From a virus, in the IMG/VR virus record IMGVR_UViG_3300049027_000140, positions 1 to 64,000 of that record: a stretch of DNA of 64,000 nucleotides, one strand, 5' to 3'. The position numbers and the translations under genes are program-made. Positions 3,329-55,905 of the stretch are shown here, one piece after another (position 1 is the first letter of the stretch; the number at the start of each line of letters is the position of its first letter). The notes under the pieces are model-generated. The model was not told the origin of the DNA and ran no database searches. It saw only the letters and a list, made by a program, of their open reading frames with translations.

Positions 3329-3420
3329 GACCTCGGCTCCTCCTAACGGACCAAGGCCGGCGTCGCTCCTCGGAGCGACCCGACCAGGGTCCAGCTCGGC
3401 GCCTCCCGTGTTATCCAGTC

Positions 3421-3454
3421 GAGACGACGGGGGCCTTGCGGCCCCCTCCGTCTC
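3421..3454 (-). terminator. Strong stem-loop after the 57-residue gene
   Basis: An outer stem GAGACG/CGTCTC encloses a perfect inner stem GGGGGCC-TTGC-GGCCCCC. It directly follows the stop of the leaderless gene 3453-3626 and lies upstream of 3113-3328. No long T-run follows on the minus strand, so it may be an intrinsic terminator typical of GC-rich DNA or an RNA-stabilising hairpin. Confidence 0.55.
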
Positions 3455-3626
3455 AGCTCCAGGTTTTCGCGATCTCCGCCTTGATCTGCTCGGCCTGGGC
3501 GCCGCTCGCCCTCTCCAGCATCGCCTCAAGGATCCACCGTACCCTCACCCGCTCCGGAAGCGCCTCCGCCTTCGCCTTGCCGCCCGCCCGAACCACCATC
3601 GCCTTGTGTGCCGCGCCGTCGTTCAT
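3453..3626 (-). CDS. Small basic protein from leaderless operator-controlled promoter (57 aa)
   Basis: The protein starts MNDGAAHKAMVVRAGGKAK and ends AEQIKAEIAKTWS; it is basic and helical. The ATG at 3626 is exactly where transcription should begin from the promoter at 3633-3661, so the mRNA is predicted to be leaderless. A stem-loop follows the stop. The same promoter type drives the genes at 4115-4402 and 4586-4798, so these three are probably co-regulated. Function unknown. Confidence 0.6.
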   Translation of the reverse strand: MNDGAAHKAMVVRAGGKAKAEALPERVRVRWILEAMLERASGAQAEQIKAEIAKTWS

Positions 3627-3632
3627 GTGTTA

Positions 3633-3661
3633 GTTATACGTCGCGACGTATTACCGGTCAA
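3633..3661 (-). promoter_or_regulatory. Leaderless promoter with palindromic operator in the spacer
   Basis: On the minus strand, TTGACC (3656-3661), a 17-bp spacer and TATAAC (3633-3638) make a near-consensus sigma-70 promoter. The predicted +1 is base 3626, the A of the ATG. The perfect palindrome ATACGTCGCGACGTAT fills 3636-3651, from the -10 into the spacer, where a bound repressor would block RNA polymerase. Two further copies lie at 4412-4427 and 4560-4575. Confidence 0.8.
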
Positions 3662-3854
3662 GCCCTGTGTTGGGATGGTCGGTCGTTTTTTTGAGGCGCA
3701 TCGCCAGCGGCTCAAGCCGCCGCGCTGGCCCGGTGCCCGGCCGCCCTTGCCCCCCCGCCGCCTCGGCCACCTTCAAGCACTCGGCCTCCAGCCGCGCCTG
3801 CTTGCTGATGGCGGACTGGCTCGCGCCAGAGTGCCAGCCATCAGGCGCGCTGAC
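3651..3854 (-). other. In-frame open extension after a TGA stop; possible interrupted gene
   Basis: Directly after the TGA at 3855-3857, the same frame stays open for about 67 codons to a TAA at 3651-3653. The predicted peptide includes SGASQSAISKQARLEAE, which looks like a helix-turn-helix recognition helix, then a basic tail. There is no good start codon inside it. Either the upstream gene was once longer and gained a nonsense mutation, or this is non-coding DNA that happens to be open. The end overlaps the -35 of the promoter at 3633-3661. Confidence 0.35.
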
Positions 3855-4058
3855 TCAGGTCCCGATCGCTGCGAGGTCCGCCTCCAGCTTCCGCGCCGTG
3901 GCGCGCCACATGCCCGCGTCTCCGGCATCCTCGTCGGCGGCTCCGCGCCAGACTCCGGCGGCTCCGCGACTCTTCGTCTTCATGGCGCGCAGCCCGTTGC
4001 GGGTCGCCGATACCTCGCTATCGAACGCAAGCTCCTCGTACAGTGCGATTGTGCTCAT
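3855..4058 (-). CDS. Hypothetical protein (67 aa), possibly truncated by a stop
   Basis: The start at 4058 has a clear AGGAGG Shine-Dalgarno. The product (MSTIALYEELAFDSEVSATR start) is short and mixed, and ends LEADLAAIGT before a TGA. The frame continues open beyond that stop with helix-turn-helix-like sequence (see 3651-3854), so this could be the N-terminal half of a DNA-binding protein. Function unknown. Confidence 0.55.
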   Translation of the reverse strand: MSTIALYEELAFDSEVSATRNGLRAMKTKSRGAAGVWRGAADEDAGDAGMWRATARKLEADLAAIGT

Positions 4059-4114
4059 CGTGTCCTCCTGACGCCGAAGGCCCGCCGAGTCTCCCCGGCG
4101 GGCCGCTGTGCTTC

Positions 4115-4402
4115 TCAGATCCGCCCGGCCATCCACCCGCGGAGCGCCGAGGCGATCGCCCGCCCCTGGTGGACGTACTGGCTGCCCTCCTCGCAGGGGC
4201 GGCGGAGCTCCGCCAGCGTCGTCTTCCCGCGGGAGCCGCCAGCCCAGAAGAGGCGGAGCGTATCGCCCATCTCGACCTTGCCGCCCTTGCGGAAGAAGTA
4301 GGCGCGGACCTCGCTCTTGCCGACCCGGACGCTGACCTCACCGAGCCCGTCCGCCTCGATGATCATCGCCGTCTGCACCGTGACCGCCGCGCCGCTCTCC
4401 AT
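4115..4402 (-). CDS. Hypothetical protein from leaderless promoter (95 aa)
   Basis: The ATG at 4402 coincides with the predicted transcription start of the promoter at 4409-4437, so the message should be leaderless; longer readings upstream would run through the operator. The protein (MESGAAVTVQTAMIIEADG start) has a beta-rich first half (VRVGKSEVRAYFFRKG) and a basic C-terminal half. No known domain. It is divergent from 4586-4798 and shares the same operator type. Confidence 0.65.
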   Translation of the reverse strand: MESGAAVTVQTAMIIEADGLGEVSVRVGKSEVRAYFFRKGGKVEMGDTLRLFWAGGSRGKTTLAELRRPCEEGSQYVHQGRAIASALRGWMAGRI

Positions 4403-4408
4403 ACCCAA

Positions 4409-4437
4409 TCTATACGTCGCGACGTATAACCGCGCAA
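4409..4437 (-). promoter_or_regulatory. Leaderless promoter with palindromic operator (left arm of divergent pair)
   Basis: The minus strand has TTGCGC (4432-4437), a 17-bp spacer and TATAGA (4409-4414), with predicted +1 at 4402. The operator palindrome, here extended to 18 bp (4411-4428), overlaps the -10 and spacer. The 15 bases GCGCAAGTGCTGTTT just upstream (4432-4446) are repeated as a perfect inverted copy at 4541-4555, so the two divergent promoters share an identical upstream element. Confidence 0.8.
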
Positions 4438-4549
4438 GTGCTGTTTCCGGTCGACGCGTCGTTTTTTTTGGGCGGGGCCTCCGGCGCGGCATACCGCCGC
4501 GTCCACGTCGGCCTCGTCCAGGAATCGACCGCCGCCTCGCAAACAGCAC

Positions 4550-4578
4550 TTGCGCGACCATACGTCGCGACGTATCAT
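4550..4578 (+). promoter_or_regulatory. Leaderless promoter with palindromic operator (right arm of divergent pair)
   Basis: TTGCGC (4550-4555), a 17-bp spacer and TATCAT (4573-4578) place +1 at about 4585, one base before the ATG at 4586. The palindrome ATACGTCGCGACGTAT occupies 4560-4575. Between the two promoters (4447-4540) I see no gene, only an eight-T run and GC-rich DNA. The XRE protein encoded at 4870-5178 is the nearest candidate repressor. Confidence 0.8.
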
Positions 4579-4585
4579 GGTCTGC

Positions 4586-4798
4586 ATGAAGACGACGCGG
4601 GCGGGCGAGATCAAGGCGGCGGTGGCGACGGCGAAGACGGTGGAGCGGATCGGGGCGCGGACGTTCCAGGCGACGTTCCGCACCGACGACGCGGCGAAGG
4701 CGGCGGCCGTGGCCCTGAAGAAGGCCGGCTGCACCGCCATGGCCGCCTACAGCGCCAGGTTCGGGCAGGACGCCTTCGTGCAGTTCACGGCAGCCTGA
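4586..4798 (+). CDS. Hypothetical small protein from leaderless promoter (70 aa)
   Basis: The protein starts MKTTRAGEIKAAVATAK and ends FGQDAFVQFTAA. It is a compact alpha/beta sequence without Cys or obvious catalytic residues. The ATG at 4586 is preferred over one at 4577 because the latter lies inside the -10 hexamer. It is first in a short rightward unit with an XRE regulator and a Fis-like protein. Confidence 0.65.
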   Translation: MKTTRAGEIKAAVATAKTVERIGARTFQATFRTDDAAKAAAVALKKAGCTAMAAYSARFGQDAFVQFTAA

Positions 4799-4869
4799 GC
4801 GGCGGCCAGGCGGCGCCAGCCCCGGAGCTCGGCGGAGACGCCGACCCGGGGCTTCGCCGCTCGAGGACC

Positions 4870-5178
4870 ATGAGCAAGACGACCAAGAGCATCACCGAGC
4901 AGATCCGCGAGGCCGTCGCGGCCTGCGGCTCCCAGGCGGAGGCGCTCCGGCGCATCCAGGCGACCGGCAGCAAGCTCACGCAGCCGCTCCTGTCGGCCAT
5001 CATGGGCGGGCAGACGCCGAGCCTGACCACCCTGCGGGACGTCGCCCGCGCCACCGGCTACCGGTTCGAGGTCGCAGGGGAGACCGAGCTCGGCACCAGC
5101 CGGGAGAAGCGACCGTCGGAGGAACCCGTGGGGACGGCCGCCGAGGCGAAGAGGCGCGGGCGACCGGTGCGCGCATGA
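4870..5178 (+). CDS. XRE-family helix-turn-helix regulator (102 aa)
   Basis: Residues about 8-65 form an XRE-type DNA-binding domain: AEALRRIQATGSKLTQPLLSAIMGG contains the turn and recognition helix, followed by LTTLRDVARATGYRFEV. The C-terminal 35 residues are basic and probably disordered. An upstream GAGGACC serves as ribosome site. Placed downstream of one of the palindrome-controlled promoters, it is the best candidate for the repressor that binds the three ATACGTCGCGACGTAT sites, including its own promoter. That link is inferred from position only. Confidence 0.75.
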   Translation: MSKTTKSITEQIREAVAACGSQAEALRRIQATGSKLTQPLLSAIMGGQTPSLTTLRDVARATGYRFEVAGETELGTSREKRPSEEPVGTAAEAKRRGRPVRA

Positions 5179-5441
5179 CAGCTCGCGCGGGGTTCGACGA
5201 GCAGGCGCTGGACGATGTGGCGGCCGCTGCAATGGGCGAGGAAGACCCGATCGCCGCCGTGGACGCGGTGGCTCACGCCGTCCGCGAGCGCGTCCTGCGC
5301 GAGGCCCTCCTCGCCGAGAGTTGGAACCTAAACGCGGCCGCCCGTCGTCTGCGGAGACGGACGTCGACCGTGCAGTACGCGCTGGAGCGCACCTACCCCG
5401 CGCTCAACGCCGAGCGTCTCCGGCGCCTGAAGGGCCGGTAG
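5175..5441 (+). CDS. Fis-type helix-turn-helix small protein (88 aa)
   Basis: The C-terminal half (LREALLAESWNLNAAARRLR then TSTVQYALER) matches the shape of the Fis-type HTH found at the end of NtrC-like activators, in which a helix of NxxxAAxxLx leads into the recognition helix. The N-terminal half is acidic. It overlaps the XRE gene as ATGA, so the two are co-expressed. It may bind DNA or be an accessory regulator; there is no sigma-54 AAA domain. Confidence 0.6.
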   Translation: MTARAGFDEQALDDVAAAAMGEEDPIAAVDAVAHAVRERVLREALLAESWNLNAAARRLRRRTSTVQYALERTYPALNAERLRRLKGR

Positions 5442-5443
5442 AC

Positions 5444-6223
5444 CTACCTCGCCAGAGGGCGCTGCTTCCGCGGCTGCGTCGATTTGTCTTGACAAGTTTT
5501 CGCGGCTCTCCCCCTACTACCCCCGTCCCTGCTGGCGCTGACCTCACCGTACGAGCCTCCACCGTCACCGGGCTCCGAGAGGGACGCGAGCTTCGCCCGG
5601 CCACGAGCCACCGCAGCGTCAATCGCCGCCTGTAGCGCCGCCTCCGCTGCCCGGATGCGCTCGATGCGGAGCTCCCAAGCCGCCCGCGACCAGTGCCTCA
5701 GCTTTGAGGGCAGCGGAGCTCCCGGCGTCGGGTCGGCGCCGATGCGCTCTCGCTCTCGAGCCACACGGGCCAGCGCGAGCGGCACCGCGCGATCCTCGGT
5801 GCGGTTCCGGCACGACGGCAGCGTCAGCCGCGCGCAGACGCGACAGCGCAGGCCCGGGCCGTCGAGGTAGAGCCTCGCGACGCGGCGACCGCAGCCAGGG
5901 CACGCCGCGTGGAGCTGGACGCCGCCGCCGGGACGTCGGGACACGAGAACCTGGAGCACGGGGCCGCCAGAGAGGACGAGCCGCCGCCCATCGATGTCGA
6001 GCTCGCCTCTGGCCCCTGGCAGCCCCCTCAGCGCGGCGTGAGCGATGGCCGAGACGTCGAACACCTGGAGCTCGGTCGTGAGCCGCCTCGAGCCGTACGG
6101 AGCCCGCGGAGGCCGATCTGAAACGGTGGCCGGCCGCCGGAGCCATGACGCCACTGCGCACCGCGTCACGCCGACATCTGTTACCAGTCCGGTCACAGTT
6201 TCCGCCCGCCGCGGTTCACCCAT
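5444..6223 (-). CDS. Zinc-ribbon protein of unknown function (259 aa)
   Basis: The centre carries CPGCGRRVARLYLD, then LRCRVCARLTLPS, a two-knuckle zinc ribbon followed by a basic helical stretch (RVARERERIG). This arrangement resembles proteins of unknown function scattered through phages and mobile elements that have the form CPGCG-x-KLY then CRxCxxLTY. The C-terminal 60 residues are low-complexity and basic. It is convergent with 5175-5441 with two bases between stops. Confidence 0.65.
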   Translation of the reverse strand: MGEPRRAETVTGLVTDVGVTRCAVASWLRRPATVSDRPPRAPYGSRRLTTELQVFDVSAIAHAALRGLPGARGELDIDGRRLVLSGGPVLQVLVSRRPGGGVQLHAACPGCGRRVARLYLDGPGLRCRVCARLTLPSCRNRTEDRAVPLALARVARERERIGADPTPGAPLPSKLRHWSRAAWELRIERIRAAEAALQAAIDAAVARGRAKLASLSEPGDGGGSYGEVSASRDGGSRGRAAKTCQDKSTQPRKQRPLAR

Positions 6224-6668: not shown

Positions 6669-6902
6669 TCACGCGGCCACCTCGATCGCGTACAGCACGA
6701 ACCCGAGCTCCTCCGCGCTGAGCGGCTTGCCGTCGCGGACCTTCGCCCGGACGGTCTCGCGCCAGATGCGGGCCTGCTCCTCGCGCCGCGCCAGATCGGC
6801 CAGCAGGTCGGTCTCCGTTGCGCCCCCGAGCACGACCCGCTCCAGCAGCACCTGCGGGTGGAGCGCCTGCCCGGGCGGCGGCTTGATGGTCTGCCTGTCC
6901 AT
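6669..6902 (-). CDS. Hypothetical protein from leaderless promoter (77 aa)
   Basis: The ATG at 6902 equals the predicted +1 of the promoter just upstream, and no Shine-Dalgarno is present, so translation is probably leaderless. The product (MDRQTIKPPPGQALHPQVLL start) is helical and charged with a hydrophobic end (LGFVLYAIEVAA). It is followed closely by the winged-helix gene, suggesting a small regulatory operon. Confidence 0.65.
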   Translation of the reverse strand: MDRQTIKPPPGQALHPQVLLERVVLGGATETDLLADLARREEQARIWRETVRAKVRDGKPLSAEELGFVLYAIEVAA

Positions 6903-6908
6903 GCGCGC

Positions 6909-6936
6909 ATGGTAGCGCCAGTTTAAGGCGGAGCAA
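6909..6936 (-). promoter_or_regulatory. Leaderless promoter with two 22-bp-spaced direct repeats
   Basis: On the minus strand, TTGCTC (6931-6936), 16 bp and TACCAT (6909-6914) give a +1 at 6902. The heptamer AAACTGG occurs twice on the same strand, at 6918-6924 in the spacer and at 6940-6946 upstream of the -35, exactly 22 bp (two helical turns) apart. That geometry fits a dimer bound to one DNA face. The next gene on the other strand starts at 7037. Confidence 0.65.
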
Positions 6937-7036
6937 TGCCCAGTTTGGGGCGATGGACCCACCGTGTCGCTCCCGCCGGAAGCGCCGGCGTGCTACCCGA
7001 CGAGCGCCGGGCTGGACGCCCGACAGAAGGAGACCT

Positions 7037-24845: not shown

Positions 24846-24849
<4 letters not shown>
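24118..24849 (-). CDS. Hypothetical protein (243 aa)
   Basis: MSSLTLHERELQNCYWRDRA begins a mixed protein with an aromatic-rich central part (YALHVLLSWWLDGFLAFAHV) and a beta-rich C-terminal half (VHIICDCGVARWPYSAEH). No known domain. It is the first gene downstream of the integrase (ATGA overlap), so in the integrated state it lies beyond the attachment core, on the other prophage end. Confidence 0.65.
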
Positions 24850-26536
<1,687 letters not shown>

Positions 26537-26540
<4 letters not shown>

Positions 26541-30065: not shown

Positions 30066-30392
30066 TCAGGCTGCCCCTCGAGCCGCAGCCATCGCCTCGC
30101 GCTCGCTCTCGACCAACCAGTCATCGGCGAGGATCGTCGGCTTGCTGAGCTTGCCGCCCTTGACCGCCTTCCGGCTCCAGAGCGCAATGTGGGCGCGGCT
30201 GATGGTGTCGGGGCGGGCGATACCGTGCCGCCAGTTGTGGATGGTCGCCCTCGCGTACGGGGGCGACTTCCCGACGAGGACGGTGATCTCGGAGGCGACC
30301 TCGGCGGATGAGAGGCCGCGCTCGTCGACGAGCTCGTCGAACTTCTTGGACCCGGGGGTCGGGTACGGACCCGGCTTGGCTGTTCTTCTCAC
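30066..30392 (-). CDS. HTH regulator, first gene of leftward operon, leaderless (108 aa)
   Basis: The GTG at 30392 coincides with the predicted +1 of the promoter at 30399-30428. The protein has an HTH-like core: DELVDERGLSSAEVASEITV, then PPYARATIHNWRHGIARPDT, where the Ser-Ser-Ala and WRHG turns resemble Cro-type folds. It faces the repressor gene 30487-31032 across about 95 bases. The pair looks like a Cro/CI switch, with this gene as the lytic-side, Cro-like partner. Confidence 0.65.
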   Translation of the reverse strand: MRRTAKPGPYPTPGSKKFDELVDERGLSSAEVASEITVLVGKSPPYARATIHNWRHGIARPDTISRAHIALWSRKAVKGGKLSKPTILADDWLVESEREAMAAARGAA

Positions 30393-30398
30393 GCCCCA

Positions 30399-30428
30399 AT
30401 TGTATGCACGACAAGACGAACTGCGCAA
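30399..30428 (-). promoter_or_regulatory. Leftward leaderless promoter
   Basis: On the minus strand TTGCGC (30423-30428), 18 bp and TACAAT (30399-30404) give a +1 at the GTG at 30392. It is the apparent start of the leftward arm. No perfect palindrome sits in the spacer, unlike the other leaderless promoters, though ATTGTATGCAC overlaps the -10. Confidence 0.6.
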
Positions 30429-30454
30429 GGGGGAACCGGTGACGGAAGTTTTTT

Positions 30455-30486: not shown

Positions 30487-31032
30487 ATGCGCAGATCCGA
30501 AGCGAGGAAGGTGCTCGCCGCGTATGTGGCCGACCGGCTCGGGCGCGAGTGCGCCGAACGACGCGGCGCGCAAGCGGAGATCGCTCGGGCGCTTGGCTTC
30601 AGCCGTGGGCACCTCAGCAACGTGCTGCGGGGCCAGTACTCCGTCGGCGAGGACCTAGCCGCACGATTGGCCGACTACTGGGGGATGACTTACGACCAGC
30701 TCCATGCGGAGGCCGAGAAGTGGGGCAAAACGTCTCAGCGACCGGCCGCAGTGGATAGACCAGAGCCTTGGCGCCGATTGAAGGATCGGCCGGAATGGAC
30801 AGCGAGCCTCGAATCTGCTCGGGCGTTCTACAAGGATATCCCGGACGACTATTTCCTGCGCGTTGGCGCCATCCTGGACGACGTGAGCCGTCACATTGAC
30901 GCGCAGTTCATCGGCGAAATGGCGAGGGTGATCTGGAGTGCCGAGGTCCGTGAGTCTGCCGTGCCCCCCGTATCTGTGGTGGAGACAACGAAGCACAGTC
31001 ACGGGAAAGACAAAAAGTCTGGCGGCAGTTGA
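30487..31032 (+). CDS. CI-like XRE repressor (181 aa)
   Basis: Residues about 24-65 (RRGAQAEIARALGFSRGHLS, then LRGQYSVGEDLAARLADYWG) are a clear XRE-type HTH. The remainder is a helical domain without a Ser-Lys LexA-type protease, so it is not a self-cleaving repressor. AGGAG precedes the ATG at 30487. Divergent from the Cro-like gene and followed by an ImmA-like protein, it is the likely lysogeny repressor. Confidence 0.8.
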   Translation: MRRSEARKVLAAYVADRLGRECAERRGAQAEIARALGFSRGHLSNVLRGQYSVGEDLAARLADYWGMTYDQLHAEAEKWGKTSQRPAAVDRPEPWRRLKDRPEWTASLESARAFYKDIPDDYFLRVGAILDDVSRHIDAQFIGEMARVIWSAEVRESAVPPVSVVETTKHSHGKDKKSGGS

Positions 31033-31103: not shown

Positions 31104-31550
31104 GTGACTATGACGCCGAACAACCGCTTGGCCGTAGAACACGCCAATGACGGTTGTGGGTGCGAAATGCACCGAGGGACACCGACCCGTAGGGATCTCG
31201 ATGCATTCCCGCATCCGTACGCGATCGCAGACGTTCTGGGATTCCGCGTCGTCGAGGTACCTTCCCTCCCCGCCGGCGCCGAGCAGATGACGGACGGCCG
31301 CACCATCTGGGTCGCGTGGGCACACGACCAGCGCCAGCGCGGCAGCAGGCTCTTCCGCGCCATTGCCGCGGCCCTGCTCTCCGCCCAGGGGGCGCCGCGC
31401 TCGGAGGCTGCGGCCTACGAGCTCGCCGCGAAGCTGGCCGTGCCGCCGGAGCTCATGCGACGCGTGGGCCTGGACGAGACCATCCGCCGGCAGGCATGGG
31501 CGACCGAGTGCCTGATCCGCTGGTGGTGGAACGCCGCCGTCGTGGAGTAG
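31104..31550 (+). CDS. Degenerate ImmA/IrrE-like protein lacking HExxH (148 aa)
   Basis: The layout matches ImmA/IrrE: an N-terminal part with VLGFRVVEVPSLPAGAE, strands DGRTIWVAWAH, then RLFRAIAAALLSAQG where HELxHxLLH normally lies, and EAAAYELAAKLAVP matching the EAxxFAxxLLMP helix. The HExxH zinc site is replaced by FRAIA, so it should not be an active metalloprotease. Active ImmA cleaves the neighbouring repressor; this one may bind it without cutting. GTG 31104 or ATG 31110 are both possible starts. Confidence 0.65.
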   Translation: MTMTPNNRLAVEHANDGCGCEMHRGTPTRRDLDAFPHPYAIADVLGFRVVEVPSLPAGAEQMTDGRTIWVAWAHDQRQRGSRLFRAIAAALLSAQGAPRSEAAAYELAAKLAVPPELMRRVGLDETIRRQAWATECLIRWWWNAAVVE

Positions 31551-31573: not shown

Positions 31574-31616
31574 CAATACATTTCCGGTTGACGTATTGTC
31601 TTGCGAGCAATACCAT
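31574..31616 (+). promoter_or_regulatory. Rightward promoter with GTATTG/CAATAC operator
   Basis: TTGACG (31588-31593), a 17-bp spacer and TACCAT (31611-31616) form a strong sigma-70 promoter. An inverted repeat GTATTG (31593-31598) and CAATAC (31608-31613) lies in the spacer, and another CAATAC half-site lies at 31574-31579. The same half-site occurs upstream of the repressor gene at 30458-30463, so the repressor may control both. About 30 nt of leader with a GAGGAGG site leads to 31655. Confidence 0.7.
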
Positions 31617-31654
31617 GGTCTCCGTCAGGCCGCGCTTGCGGCCGAGGAGGCCCG

Positions 31655-46702: not shown

Positions 46703-47527
46703 ATGCAGCTGCCAATTGGACGCCGGTTGAAGCACAGCGACATCACGCCGGAGATGGAGACCGAGCTTGCGCGCCAGTGTCAGGCTGGCGACACGCGAGC
46801 CGGTGCCGCTCTGGTCATGGCGAACGAGCCCATGATCTACAAGTTCGTGCGGCGGTACTTTCGCAAAGGCGTCCGGACCGAGGACATCATGCAGGCGGCG
46901 CGGTTTGGGTTCTACCGCGGGATCTTACGATTCGACCCGGCCGTGGGCGCTCGGCTCACGACCTATGCGCTCTACTGGGCGAGGAACGAGGCGGTCGACG
47001 CACTCCAGGGCGAGGGGCCCACGATCCGCATCCCGCGGCACGTCTTCGACGCGATCTACAAGTCGGCGAAGACCGGAGAGGCACTGGATGAGGAGACGGC
47101 CGAGGCGGCGCGGCTGCTGACCACGCCGAGCCTCGACATCCCGGTGCGCAGGGACGGGTCCACGCGCGGCGACCTCGAGGTGAACCCGATGCCGGGCCCA
47201 GAAGCATCGGCCGAGGCCGACGACGCCCAGCGACGCCGCCGGGAGCTCATCCAGCGGGCGCTGACGTGGCTGACCGATCGGGAGCGCGAGATCGTCGAGC
47301 GTCGGTTCTGCGAGGAGCCGGAGAGCTACGAAGCGATCGGCGCCTCGCTCGGCTTCACGAAGCAGAGGACCGAGCAGATCATGAAACGCGCGCTGCCGAA
47401 GCTCGACCGGGCCGTGCGGCGCGTGATGGCGAAGGACGACTGGATGCTCTGGGGCGCGCGCGGGCCGCTGAAGCCGCTTGGGGAGACGGCGAGGGGCGAA
47501 GCGGAGAGCGTGGAGGTGGCGAGGTGA
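46703..47527 (+). CDS. Phage sigma-70-family RNA polymerase sigma factor (274 aa)
   Basis: Region 2 (about residues 40-113) reads DIMQAARFGFYRGILRFDPA, VGARLTTYALYWARNEAVDA, the usual core-binding and -10-recognition helices. A linker (115-178) without a recognised region 3 follows, then region 4 (about 180-240) with LTDREREIVERRFCEEPESY and LGFTKQRTEQIMKRALPKLD. This could direct host polymerase to late phage promoters. A start at GTG 46661 is also open; ATG 46703 has AGGA five bases upstream. Confidence 0.8.
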   Translation: MQLPIGRRLKHSDITPEMETELARQCQAGDTRAGAALVMANEPMIYKFVRRYFRKGVRTEDIMQAARFGFYRGILRFDPAVGARLTTYALYWARNEAVDALQGEGPTIRIPRHVFDAIYKSAKTGEALDEETAEAARLLTTPSLDIPVRRDGSTRGDLEVNPMPGPEASAEADDAQRRRRELIQRALTWLTDREREIVERRFCEEPESYEAIGASLGFTKQRTEQIMKRALPKLDRAVRRVMAKDDWMLWGARGPLKPLGETARGEAESVEVAR

Positions 47528-50847: not shown

Positions 50848-51081
50848 CTACGGGCCGTCGCCTACGCGCTCGACGCGCAGCCTGCACCCTGCCGCCGACA
50901 GCAGCCGCACGACCGTCGACAGCGACGGATCCGCGGCGCCGGTGAGCGCCCGGCTGATGCTGCTCTGGGCGATGCCGGTCGCCACCTTCAGGTCGCGCTG
51001 CGAAAATCCTGCCGCGTCGATGGCGGCCGCGATCTGCTGGCGCAGTTCGGCGGTGAGGGTCGCGGGGTCGTCCTGGGGCAT
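50848..51081 (-). CDS. XRE-family regulator (77 aa)
   Basis: ATLTAELRQQIAAAIDAAGF, SQRDLKVATGIAQSSISRAL and TVVRLLSAAGCRLRVERVG are the five helices of an XRE domain with a short end. The ATG at 51081 overlaps the stop of the gene upstream (TGATG). As second gene under the promoter at 51631-51659, it probably binds the palindrome there and represses its own operon, like an antitoxin-type autoregulator. Confidence 0.75.
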   Translation of the reverse strand: MPQDDPATLTAELRQQIAAAIDAAGFSQRDLKVATGIAQSSISRALTGAADPSLSTVVRLLSAAGCRLRVERVGDGP

Positions 51082-51593
51082 CAAGACCAGTTTCCTGAGA
51101 AGCCCGGGTTCTCATCGCGCCACTCGGACACGATCTTCTCGTGGAGCGCGCGGTCCTCATCGTTGCCGCGCGCGAGGTAGCCCGCCCGCCGGCAGAGCGC
51201 CGTGTAGAGCTCGGCCTGGTCCTCGCCGTCGGTGCGGCGGAGGCGTTCGGCCGTGCCATCCTCCACCAGGCTTCCCGCAGCGCCCAGCAGGGCATCGGGT
51301 CGGCACGTCCAGAGGCAGGTGCCGTCGTTGACCACAACCCCGGCCTCGAACAGCGTGATCTTGAGGCCGGTGATGCCGGCCTCATTGAGAGCCGCCTTGA
51401 TCTGCCGAACCGACGGCGCCGGGGCCTCGACCGAGATGAGCGACGGGTCCTCGGCGGCCACAGCGCGCGCCTCCTCGACGGAGAGGCCCTCGCGGGCGCC
51501 CTCGGTCGGGTCCGCCGCCTTGCTCAGGAGGAGCCCGCTGCGCTCCGCCACCTCGATCGCCGTCCACCCCGTCAGCCGCACCGTCGTCGCCAT
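51081..51593 (-). CDS. Hypothetical protein in regulated XRE operon (170 aa)
   Basis: GGGAGGGAG precedes the ATG at 51593. MATTVRLTGWTAIEVAERSG begins a helical part; the centre (IKAALNEAGITGLKITLFEA) and end (CRRAGYLARGNDEDRALHEK) suggest an alpha/beta fold. It is encoded before the XRE gene under an operator-controlled promoter, the order of reverse toxin-antitoxin or phage counter-defence pairs. No toxin family is recognised. Confidence 0.6.
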   Translation of the reverse strand: MATTVRLTGWTAIEVAERSGLLLSKAADPTEGAREGLSVEEARAVAAEDPSLISVEAPAPSVRQIKAALNEAGITGLKITLFEAGVVVNDGTCLWTCRPDALLGAAGSLVEDGTAERLRRTDGEDQAELYTALCRRAGYLARGNDEDRALHEKIVSEWRDENPGFSGNWS

Positions 51594-51630
51594 GATCGTC
51601 TCCCTCCCGGCGCCGCGCGCCGATGGTCTA

Positions 51631-51659
51631 CTGATATCGTATACGCTATCAGCTGTCAA
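51631..51659 (-). promoter_or_regulatory. Operator-in-spacer promoter for the XRE operon
   Basis: Minus strand: TTGACA (51654-51659), 17 bp, TATCAG (51631-51636). A 22-bp near-perfect inverted repeat with outer arms CTGATA/TATCAG and the core CGTATACG lies over the spacer and -10. The binding protein is probably the XRE product of 50848-51081. A leader with Shine-Dalgarno follows, so this promoter is not leaderless. Confidence 0.8.
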
Positions 51660-54243: not shown

Positions 54244-54762
54244 TTAAGCAGCTCGGACACGCACGCTGACCGACTCCGCGCCCGCGTCCCACGCCTCGCG
54301 CTTCAGCTGCTCGCACAGCTCCTCGGCGCCCTGCCGGTCAGCGGGCACCTTGCGGCAGTAGGCCAAGCGGCGCACGCCGTCACTGCCCGAGCTGTCGAGG
54401 ATCACCTGGTCGGCCGGGTAGAAGCCCGGCGCGCCGTGGACCTCGACCTCGAAGGCGTACTCCGTGCCGTCCGCCACGCCGCGCATCTCGGCCGCCTGCT
54501 CCTGGGTCAGCACCTCGGAGAACGCCCGCTTGATGGCGCGGCGGCTGCCCTCCGGCGCGGCCGCGCAGAGGACACCGAGCTTGCGAGGGTACGAGCCCGG
54601 GATCGAGCGGAGCCAGCGCGCGTGGACCGCGTGGCGGCGGAGCTCAGTGCCGAGCAGCCGCATCGCCGGAGCCGCGAGTAGGTAGGAGAGCTCGACCCGG
54701 AGGAGGGCGAGAGCCTGAGCCGGGGTGCCGATCCAGTCCTGGGCAGCGGGGCGACGGGGCAT
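54244..54762 (-). CDS. Hypothetical protein from leaderless operator-controlled promoter (172 aa)
   Basis: The ATG at 54762 is the predicted transcription start of the promoter at 54769-54796. LLRVELSYLLAAPAMRLLGT and FSEVLTQEQAAEMRGVADGT are helical; the C-terminal half (EYAFEVEVHGAPGFYPADQV) is beta-rich, ending in EELCEQLKREAWDAGAES. No family recognised. It is the first gene of the leftward island unit 54762 to 52027. Confidence 0.65.
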   Translation of the reverse strand: MPRRPAAQDWIGTPAQALALLRVELSYLLAAPAMRLLGTELRRHAVHARWLRSIPGSYPRKLGVLCAAAPEGSRRAIKRAFSEVLTQEQAAEMRGVADGTEYAFEVEVHGAPGFYPADQVILDSSGSDGVRRLAYCRKVPADRQGAEELCEQLKREAWDAGAESVSVRVRAA

Positions 54763-54768
54763 GTCTTA

Positions 54769-54796
54769 TTAGTAGCGCTTCGCTCTGTTAAGTCAA
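54769..54796 (-). promoter_or_regulatory. Leaderless promoter, second operator family, site 1
   Basis: Minus strand: TTGACT (54791-54796), 16 bp, TACTAA (54769-54774), with +1 at the ATG (54762). The spacer holds AGCGAAGCGCTA, with GCGCTA matching the half-site of sites 2 and 3. The spacing of 16 bp is shared by all three. Confidence 0.75.
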
Positions 54797-54831
54797 CGGC
54801 AGCTCGGTGGGAATCGGCCGACTCCACGCCG

Positions 54832-54859
54832 TTGACATCCTAGCGCCCGTCGCTACCAT
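54832..54859 (+). promoter_or_regulatory. Promoter, second operator family, site 2
   Basis: TTGACA (54832-54837), 16 bp, TACCAT (54854-54859). The spacer has TAGCGCCCGTCGCTA, with TAGCG/CGCTA arms. Unlike sites 1 and 3 it has a leader of about 30 bases with a GAGG site before the ATG at 54896. Sites 1 and 2 are divergent with about 35 bp between their -35 boxes. Confidence 0.75.
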
Positions 54860-54895
54860 TGGCACGCGAGGTGCTATGAGGGAGCGAGGACGAGG

Positions 54896-55243
54896 ATGGT
54901 GAAGGGCGTGATGGGTCGGCCGCGTGGAGCTCCGCTGCCGGCGAGCGAACTGGCCGACGTAGGCGAAGGCATGGTGCGCGTGTTCCTGCGGGTGCCGCCG
55001 CCGCTCGCGGAAGGGATGGGCAAACCGAGGCAGCGGCCGGTCCACCTGGCGATCGCGGTCGAGCGGCTGCTGCTGACCGAGCCGCGGCCGCGCATCCCCG
55101 AGGTGATGGCCGAGGGGCCCGGTGCGCAGTGGACGGTCCTGCGCTGGCAGGCCGAGCGAATGGAGGAGCGCTTCGGGCTCGCAGATCGCGACCGCGCCTT
55201 CCTCCTGGCGATCGAGCGGTACATCTCAGAGATAGACCAGTAG
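54896..55243 (+). CDS. Hypothetical protein, candidate regulator of island (115 aa)
   Basis: GAGGACGAGG precedes the ATG. After a basic start (MVKGVMGRPRGAPLPASELA), MVRVFLRVPPPLAEGMGK looks like the strand and first helix of a ribbon-helix-helix protein. The remainder (WQAERMEERFGLADRDRAFL) is helical. If it is an RHH protein it could bind the TAGCGC sites. That is position-based inference. Confidence 0.55.
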   Translation: MVKGVMGRPRGAPLPASELADVGEGMVRVFLRVPPPLAEGMGKPRQRPVHLAIAVERLLLTEPRPRIPEVMAEGPGAQWTVLRWQAERMEERFGLADRDRAFLLAIERYISEIDQ

Positions 55244-55289
55244 AGACGCTGCGTTAGGCGGCCCCCCGCAAGAACCGAATCACGGCCCG

Positions 55290-55317
55290 TTGACATCGTA
55301 GCGCCATGCGCTACTAT
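55290..55317 (+). promoter_or_regulatory. Leaderless promoter, second operator family, site 3
   Basis: TTGACA (55290-55295), 16 bp, TACTAT (55312-55317); +1 falls on the A of the ATG at 55324. The spacer and -10 edge contain GTAGCGC-CAT-GCGCTAC, a perfect 7-bp inverted repeat around three bases. A start at 55306 in the same frame would lie in the promoter and is rejected. Confidence 0.8.
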
Positions 55318-55323
55318 GTCGAC

Positions 55324-55905
55324 ATGAGCAACGGTGCTGCGGCGGTCTTCGGTGAGGTGGCGGCGAACGACGTGTGTGCGACGGTCTCCGAAGACCGCGC
55401 TCGCCGGCTGGAGCCTGAGTACGCGCGGCTCCGCGAGGTGGCGAAGGGGCACTGGACGGGCGCCAAATACGACAAGGAGCGGCCGTTCACGGAGACGGCG
55501 AAGCTCATCCGCAAAGAGCTCGCCGCGGCGTCGAAGGCTGACGGCGTGCTCCGCGGCGTGAAGTGCACCGTGAAGTCCGGGTGGTCGACGTACAAGCGGT
55601 CGCTCGACATCAAGATCGTCGAGGTCGCCACCGGGGACAAGATGCCGATCATGAACCCGGCCCGTGTCGAGCGCGAGATGCGGAACCCGCACGCCGCCGT
55701 GCTCGGCTGCTGGCTCTCGAAGCGCGGGAAGGAGATCGAGAAGGCTGTCGAGACGATCGCGCGTCAGTACAGCTACGACAAGAGCGACTCGATGTCGGAT
55801 TACCATGACACCGCGTTCCACATCTCGGTGACGTTCGCGAGTGATGTGCAAGCGTCGCACCGCGCCGAGGTCGAGGCCGCCGTGCGGATGGCCGGCCGGG
55901 TCTGA
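55324..55905 (+). CDS. LPD29-domain protein (193 aa)
   Basis: ETAKLIRKELAAASKADGVL, then RGVKCTVKSGWSTYKRSLDI matches the LPD29 (large polyvalent protein-associated domain 29) pattern: TAKxIRKELKxxFP then FSVxxxxYxxGxSIxV. The N-terminal 50 residues are helical, and the C-terminal half includes YSYDKSDSMSDYHDTAFHIS, the expected YNYDxSDSMxDYFD-like stretch. Such domains occur in anti-restriction and counter-defence polyvalent proteins; here it stands alone. Its own repressed leaderless promoter suggests immediate early expression. Confidence 0.7.
   Translation: MSNGAAAVFGEVAANDVCATVSEDRARRLEPEYARLREVAKGHWTGAKYDKERPFTETAKLIRKELAAASKADGVLRGVKCTVKSGWSTYKRSLDIKIVEVATGDKMPIMNPARVEREMRNPHAAVLGCWLSKRGKEIEKAVETIARQYSYDKSDSMSDYHDTAFHISVTFASDVQASHRAEVEAAVRMAGRV

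Follow-up and report, generated by a model that had tools for sequence, protein, structure and literature searches.

A perfect palindrome in the −35/−10 spacer of three predicted leaderless promoters of a GC-rich temperate phage

Bases 1-64000 of the 98,115-base virus record IMGVR_UViG_3300049027_000140, the stretch analysed here and referred to as the window, contain three promoters (P1–P3) in which the same perfect 16-bp palindrome, ATACGTCGCGACGTAT, lies between the −35 and the −10 element, and from which transcription would start on, or one base before, the ATG of a small open reading frame. The palindrome is present in exactly three copies in the whole record. By position, symmetry and genome-wide statistics, the arrangement is well supported as a set of operator-controlled leaderless promoters, and control by a small XRE-like protein encoded next to P3 is plausible. 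The features of the region are compiled in Table 1.

Table 1 Features of the palindrome-bearing region (positions in the window; hairpin rank, among 174 genes, from the folding energy over the first 55 bases past the stop codon)
Feature	Position	Strand	Details
Palindrome copy 1	3636-3651		predicted operator of P1
Palindrome copy 2	4412-4427		predicted operator of P2; symmetry reaches 18 bp (4411-4428)
Palindrome copy 3	4560-4575		predicted operator of P3
P1	3633-3661	−	TTGACC (3661-3656)-N17-TATAAC (3638-3633); ATG 3626
P2	4409-4437	−	TTGCGC (4437-4432)-N17-TATAGA (4414-4409); ATG 4402
P3	4550-4578	+	TTGCGC (4550-4555)-N17-TATCAT (4573-4578); ATG 4586
AAACAGCACTTGCGCG, upstream element of P2	4431-4446	−	within inverted repeat
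AAACAGCACTTGCGCG, upstream element of P3	4541-4556	+	within inverted repeat
A7 tract	3686-3692	−	last A 24 nt upstream of P1 −35
A8 tract	4462-4469	−	last A 24 nt upstream of P2 −35
57-aa ORF	3453-3626	−	predicted leaderless; no assigned function
95-aa ORF	4115-4402	−	predicted leaderless; no assigned function
70-aa ORF	4586-4798	+	predicted leaderless; no assigned function
GC hairpin directly 3' of 57-aa ORF	3423-3452	−	z −3.86; rank 4/174; terminator-like, without U tract
11-bp GC hairpin 3' of 95-aa ORF	4079-4104	−	z −2.68; rank 5/174
Long GC hairpin between 70-aa ORF and XRE gene	4804-4867	+	z −3.07; rank 1/174
XRE/HTH_3-like protein, 102 aa	4870-5178	+	best candidate repressor; has Shine-Dalgarno sequence
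Fis/PucR-type HTH-like protein, 88 aa	5175-5441	+	second candidate regulator; match below cut-off

At all three promoters, 4 bp separate the end of the −35 hexamer from the palindrome, whose last three bases form the TAT of the −10 element while the rest is contained in the 17-bp spacer. The ATG follows the −10 hexamer after 6 (P1), 6 (P2) or 7 nt (P3), which under usual spacing places it on +1, +1 and +2, respectively. A sequence-only reading of this DNA had pointed out the three palindrome copies, all of which proved to be exact, and had likewise claimed a 17-bp spacer with an ATG on or one base from +1, as found here. A Shine-Dalgarno (SD) sequence was detected before none of the three ATGs; an SD-like word precedes 127 of the 174 predicted genes of the phage. 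All three ORFs thus begin on or beside the predicted +1 without an SD sequence, as leaderless genes do. The 17-bp spacing is optimal, so that P1–P3 would work without DNA distortion. The built-in promoter scan returned no match at P1–P3 because its consensus rule is stricter.

The divergent promoters P2 and P3 do have in common the inverted upstream element described in the earlier reading (AAACAGCACTTGCGCG, 15–16 bp); both copies are enclosed by a 38-nt inverted repeat of 89% identity, making P2 and P3 near-copies of each other. Since, moreover, the −10 TAT is supplied by the palindrome itself, the three promoters are not independent inventions, and their −35 elements do not represent three independent events. 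The positions of the ATGs and the arrangement of P1 are independent events; P1 resembles P2 only in the TTG of the −35 element, in the palindrome and in the A tract, all in exact register. Runs of at least six A or T number only five in the 98-kb genome, and the tracts of P1 and P2 are among them. A third such run, an A6 tract, is located 20 nt before the −35 element of the leaderless-looking GTG gene 30066-30392. The A tracts, as well as the GC hairpins and the recurrence of the design described below, had been overlooked in the sequence-only reading.

Further copies of ATACGTCGCGACGTAT were absent from the window when one to three mismatches were allowed, and a scan of the complete 98,115-base record, which had been proposed earlier, returned only the same three sites with up to two mismatches. 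In shuffled sequence 0.21 near-matches are expected, and three were reached in none of 100 shuffles. An Rfam search of the window for RNA families gave no matches, and the palindrome core, searched as text, gave none in the literature.

The three ORFs have a phage-like codon GC profile, with third-position GC values of 0.88, 0.96 and 0.97 (phage mean, 0.90). Their products had been described as having no known function, consistent with protein family searches that yielded no match above cut-off, and a recognisable DNA-binding domain was found in none of them. The low-confidence model of the 95-aa protein consists of four strands and a C-terminal helix, and a fold search with this protein did not retrieve a meaningful match. 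An interpretation of the small ORFs as defence genes was dropped, as PADLOC returned no matches. Right behind each ORF there is a strong hairpin, which gives each unit the look of a monocistronic cassette made up of promoter, ORF and hairpin. The hairpins are stable and GC-rich, like those of intrinsic terminators, and lack a U tract; a scan for consensus terminators picked up none of the three.

Even palindromes of 16–18 bp have the size bound by Cro/C1-type dimers such as P22 c2 and the 434 proteins. A dyad repeated in fixed register to the −35 and −10 elements, as observed here, is what a repressor operator on a sigma-70 promoter looks like, and a perfect dyad of 16–18 bp, centred at about −17 between optimally spaced −35 and −10 elements, points to a place where RNA polymerase and a dimeric repressor would compete. 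In general terms, the palindromes are thus probably repressor operators. We propose that they serve one phage-encoded, symmetric (dimeric) DNA-binding repressor which, bound from about −25 to −10, would occupy the spacer as well as the upstream half of the −10 element and thereby shut out the host RNA polymerase. When the repressor is missing or inactivated, each promoter would give rise to a short, leaderless, single-gene mRNA ending at the GC hairpin. The 57-, 95- and 70-aa products would have accessory or early roles in the life of a temperate phage. The XRE-like protein 4870-5178 could be made at a low level, e.g. by read-through from P3, and so curb its own synthesis. This complete explanation, with the XRE-like protein as the most likely repressor, is the best we can offer, and we give it an even chance.

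For the specific claim that the XRE-like protein is itself the binder, we would put the chance slightly below even. The HTH_3 match of the 102-aa protein does not reach the curated cut-off (12.6 versus 23 bits), and a second family search did not list the protein. By phmmer it weakly matches a paralogue of the same phage, the bona fide XRE protein encoded at 50848-51081 (E value of 4e-4 in a set of 174 proteins). Its predicted structure comprises four helices at low confidence (pLDDT 61); the best structural matches of this model are mostly XRE proteins (DdrO, HipB, HigA2, P22 c2), all with E values above 1. Weak matches were obtained by tblastn, three out of nine in plasmid genes annotated as helix-turn-helix. 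These data weakly and indirectly support the XRE character of the protein. P3 reads towards its gene, which follows downstream on the same strand; the strong hairpin in between argues against the XRE-like protein, as does the lack of relatives in which co-variation of operator and regulator could be followed. Searches of IMG/VR with the 95-aa, 70-aa and XRE-like proteins and the integrase, terminase and capsid proteins gave matches of at best 25–29%, to the integrase or terminase, and relatives were not found in a phage collection searched with the 57-, 95- and 70-aa and XRE-like proteins or with the DNA from 3400 to 5500. The best argument for autoregulation by the XRE-like protein comes from another operon of the phage. 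Its promoter, 51659(−), TTGACA-N17-TATCAG (region 51593-51659), has a spacer palindrome of its own, the 22-bp near-palindrome CTGATAGCGTATACGATATCAG, and is followed by an orphan gene as the first and the bona fide HTH_3 XRE gene (50848-51081) as the second and last gene.

It is possible, albeit rather unlikely, that the operators are bound by another protein of the phage, namely the Fis-like protein, the main lysogeny repressor (30487-31032), or one of the three leaderless products, acting on its own family of promoters in the way of lambda CI, which is made from a leaderless mRNA. The HTH-like ORF of the Fis-like protein overlaps the stop codon of the XRE gene and adjoins the region as closely as the latter, but its HTH match is below cut-off. 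The C1/HigA-like main repressor carries an HTH domain above the Pfam cut-off; its region, however, holds other repeated words (GTATTG/CAATAC) and not ATACGTCGCGACGTAT. Phage repressors, among them lambda cI and PaaR2 (PMC8630535), typically have leaderless mRNAs, which speaks for this alternative; the absence of a recognisable DNA-binding domain from all three leaderless products speaks against it.

We consider it improbable that the three genes are switched on through the palindrome, with an activator as its binder or with the phage sigma factor (46703-47527) reading it as part of its recognition sequence. The phage indeed encodes this sigma-70 family factor, the −35 hexamer TTGCGC is a poor match to the consensus, and an A tract is found upstream of two promoters. 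However, MerR-type spacer-bound activators need spacers of 19–20 bp, in contrast to the 17 bp of P1, P2 and P3, and for a sigma-factor class three sites in 98 kb are too few and a perfect dyad would not be read.

Capture of a host operator by a phage is known, for example from LexA-controlled prophage promoters, but there is little likelihood that a host regulator uses the palindrome as its operator and is exploited by the phage to sense the state of its host. Public genomes (257 billion bases, 84,980 species, from which the host lineage may be missing) contain 18 exact matches to ATACGTCGCGACGTAT, fewer than the approximately 60 that an evenly composed random 16-mer should produce. These matches were scattered and chance-like, and none showed a credible promoter-plus-ATG (TTG/ATG) context; the single case was an AT-rich Mucilaginibacter sequence. 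A search of IMG/VR returned one match, within a coding gene. Judged from these counts, ATACGTCGCGACGTAT is not a common host motif.

That the repeats have no regulatory role and stem from promoter duplication, or are a partition, replication or methylation site located there by chance, is very improbable: the near-identity of P2 and P3 over 38 nt and a DNA methyltransferase gene of the phage would fit, but P1 and P2 share palindrome and A tract in exact register, different palindromes occupy the same place in other promoters of the phage, and the core word TCGCGA is neither avoided nor enriched (76 seen, 77 expected), for which reason a methylation- or restriction-site reading was dropped.

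Operators within the spacer of leaderless promoters appear to be a recurrent feature of this phage. A genome-wide scan identified 23 promoter-like sites, seven of which have a strong dyad across the spacer, compared with 0.7 expected from Markov simulations (largest value, 2). An ATG 5–9 nt past the −10 element was likewise found at seven of the 23 sites, with 0.3 expected (largest value, 1); one of these, 30667(+) inside the repressor gene, is probably due to chance. A second triad, at 54762-55324, consists of a divergent pair, 54796(−)/54832(+), and a third promoter, 55290(+), which have the spacer palindrome TAGCGC-N3-GCGCTA in common; two of the three are of the leaderless type, with an ATG 6 nt past the −10 element. 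The scan also recovered promoter 51659(−), described above, and promoter 6936(−), which has two CGCC-NN-AAACTGG boxes (6902-6955), one of them inside the spacer, and precedes a predicted leaderless 77-aa ORF (6669-6902). The "small, self-contained regulon" postulated from the sequence thus holds in so far as the palindrome is confined to three sites in 98 kb; its design, though, is shared by several other spacer-palindrome promoters of the phage. A wider proposal would be that an operator in the spacer, combined with a leaderless ORF, is a general design by which the phage keeps many small genes under separate repression (different palindromes mark at least two triads, and there are further single cases), each set having its own small XRE-type repressor, and that the host-takeover or lysogenic-conversion proteins they encode are translated without a leader (by 70S ribosomes, without SD sequence) when normal initiation is impaired; in this full form we regard it as speculative and unlikely. 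A weak match to PHROG 1926, 'released from the phage upon host infection' (E value of 5e-7), was noted for gene 55306-55905 of the second triad.

One phage regulator acting at several separated, identical sites is known from the C1 sites of phage P1 and the conserved inverted repeats of phiC31. The stoperators of cluster A mycobacteriophages (PMC9283540, PMC6550527) are comparable in this respect, but they are asymmetric, numerous and located mostly within transcribed regions, whereas the three perfect palindromes described here all lie inside core promoters. Further parallels are lambda cI with PRM-OR and the PaaR2/YdaS switch of an E. coli O157:H7 cryptic prophage (PMC8630535), which combine palindromic operators over core promoters, a phage XRE-type regulator (a candidate in our case) and a leaderless mRNA beginning at AUG (predicted in our case). 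In those systems, it is the regulator itself that is encoded by the leaderless gene, and a single intergenic region contains the cluster of operators; here, by contrast, the leaderless genes are orphans, each of three promoters has a single site, and an SD sequence precedes the candidate regulator gene. The DdrO/RDRM system of Deinococcus (PMC5552922), a genus in which leaderless mRNAs are common, likewise pairs an XRE-family repressor, to which our candidate shows a weak fold match, with one palindrome, of 17 bp, which recurs at promoters of small genes that are not linked to each other. It differs in being a chromosomal DNA-damage regulon with a palindrome of variable position and different sequence, and in its control by the IrrE protease, the ORF behind the main repressor of the phage being devoid of HExxH.

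That phage operators overlap core promoters is textbook knowledge, and leaderless phage repressor genes (lambda cI, PaaR2) and single-palindrome XRE regulons (DdrO) have been described as well; the present arrangement is a well-supported case of this kind, unusual in combining orphan leaderless genes, each with one operator and ending in a hairpin, with a design repeated within one phage. A perfect operator with three outputs and a nearby candidate regulator would constitute a compact switch; the searched collections contain hardly any relatives of this phage group. Repeated use of a spacer operator and a leaderless start in a genome of 71% GC would indicate that phage accessory genes can routinely be built on a feature best known from lambda cI. 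If binding by the XRE-like protein holds true, operator and protein would form a ready-made orthogonal repressor-operator pair.

The record represents a temperate, contractile-tailed phage without a close relative in the collections searched. It encodes a tyrosine integrase, C1/Cro-like proteins, a sigma-70 family factor, RecT and YqaJ recombination proteins and a DNA methyltransferase, along with a large terminase, a B3/Mu-like capsid protein and a Mu-like tail sheath. The integrase ORF (24846-26540) holds a tRNA-Lys(UUU)-like 3' half with its core at about 25145-25187, CTTTTAATCCGTAGGTCCAGGGTTCGAGTCCCTGTCGACCCA; attP may accordingly lie inside int, as in Myxococcus phage Mx8 (PMC6070905), and integration would replace the C-terminus of the integrase. 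This tRNA half was absent from nine test genomes and from IMG/VR. Together with the GC content, it suggests a myxobacterial host, which we take as a lead only. Mx8 resembles the present phage in being GC-rich and temperate, with attP inside the integrase gene, a DNA methylase and a small HTH regulator; it differs in having about half the size and no such palindrome reported.

Some further genes are worth recording. The GTATTG/CAATAC repeats surround the C1-like gene and the promoter that follows it (30392-30454, 31588-31620; immunity region), and the ORF directly behind the C1-like gene (31167-31550) resembles an ImmA/IrrE-type partner in its position but has no HExxH motif. Gene 14831-15742 matches the Pfam squalene/phytoene synthase family above cut-off (E value of 5e-7) and contains the motif NNxRDxxEDxxxGRxYFP, which is surprising for a phage. 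Two terminase-like paralogues with 32% identity, at bases 89590-90285 and 92275-93909 of the record, flank the portal region on either side; the smaller one appears to be truncated.
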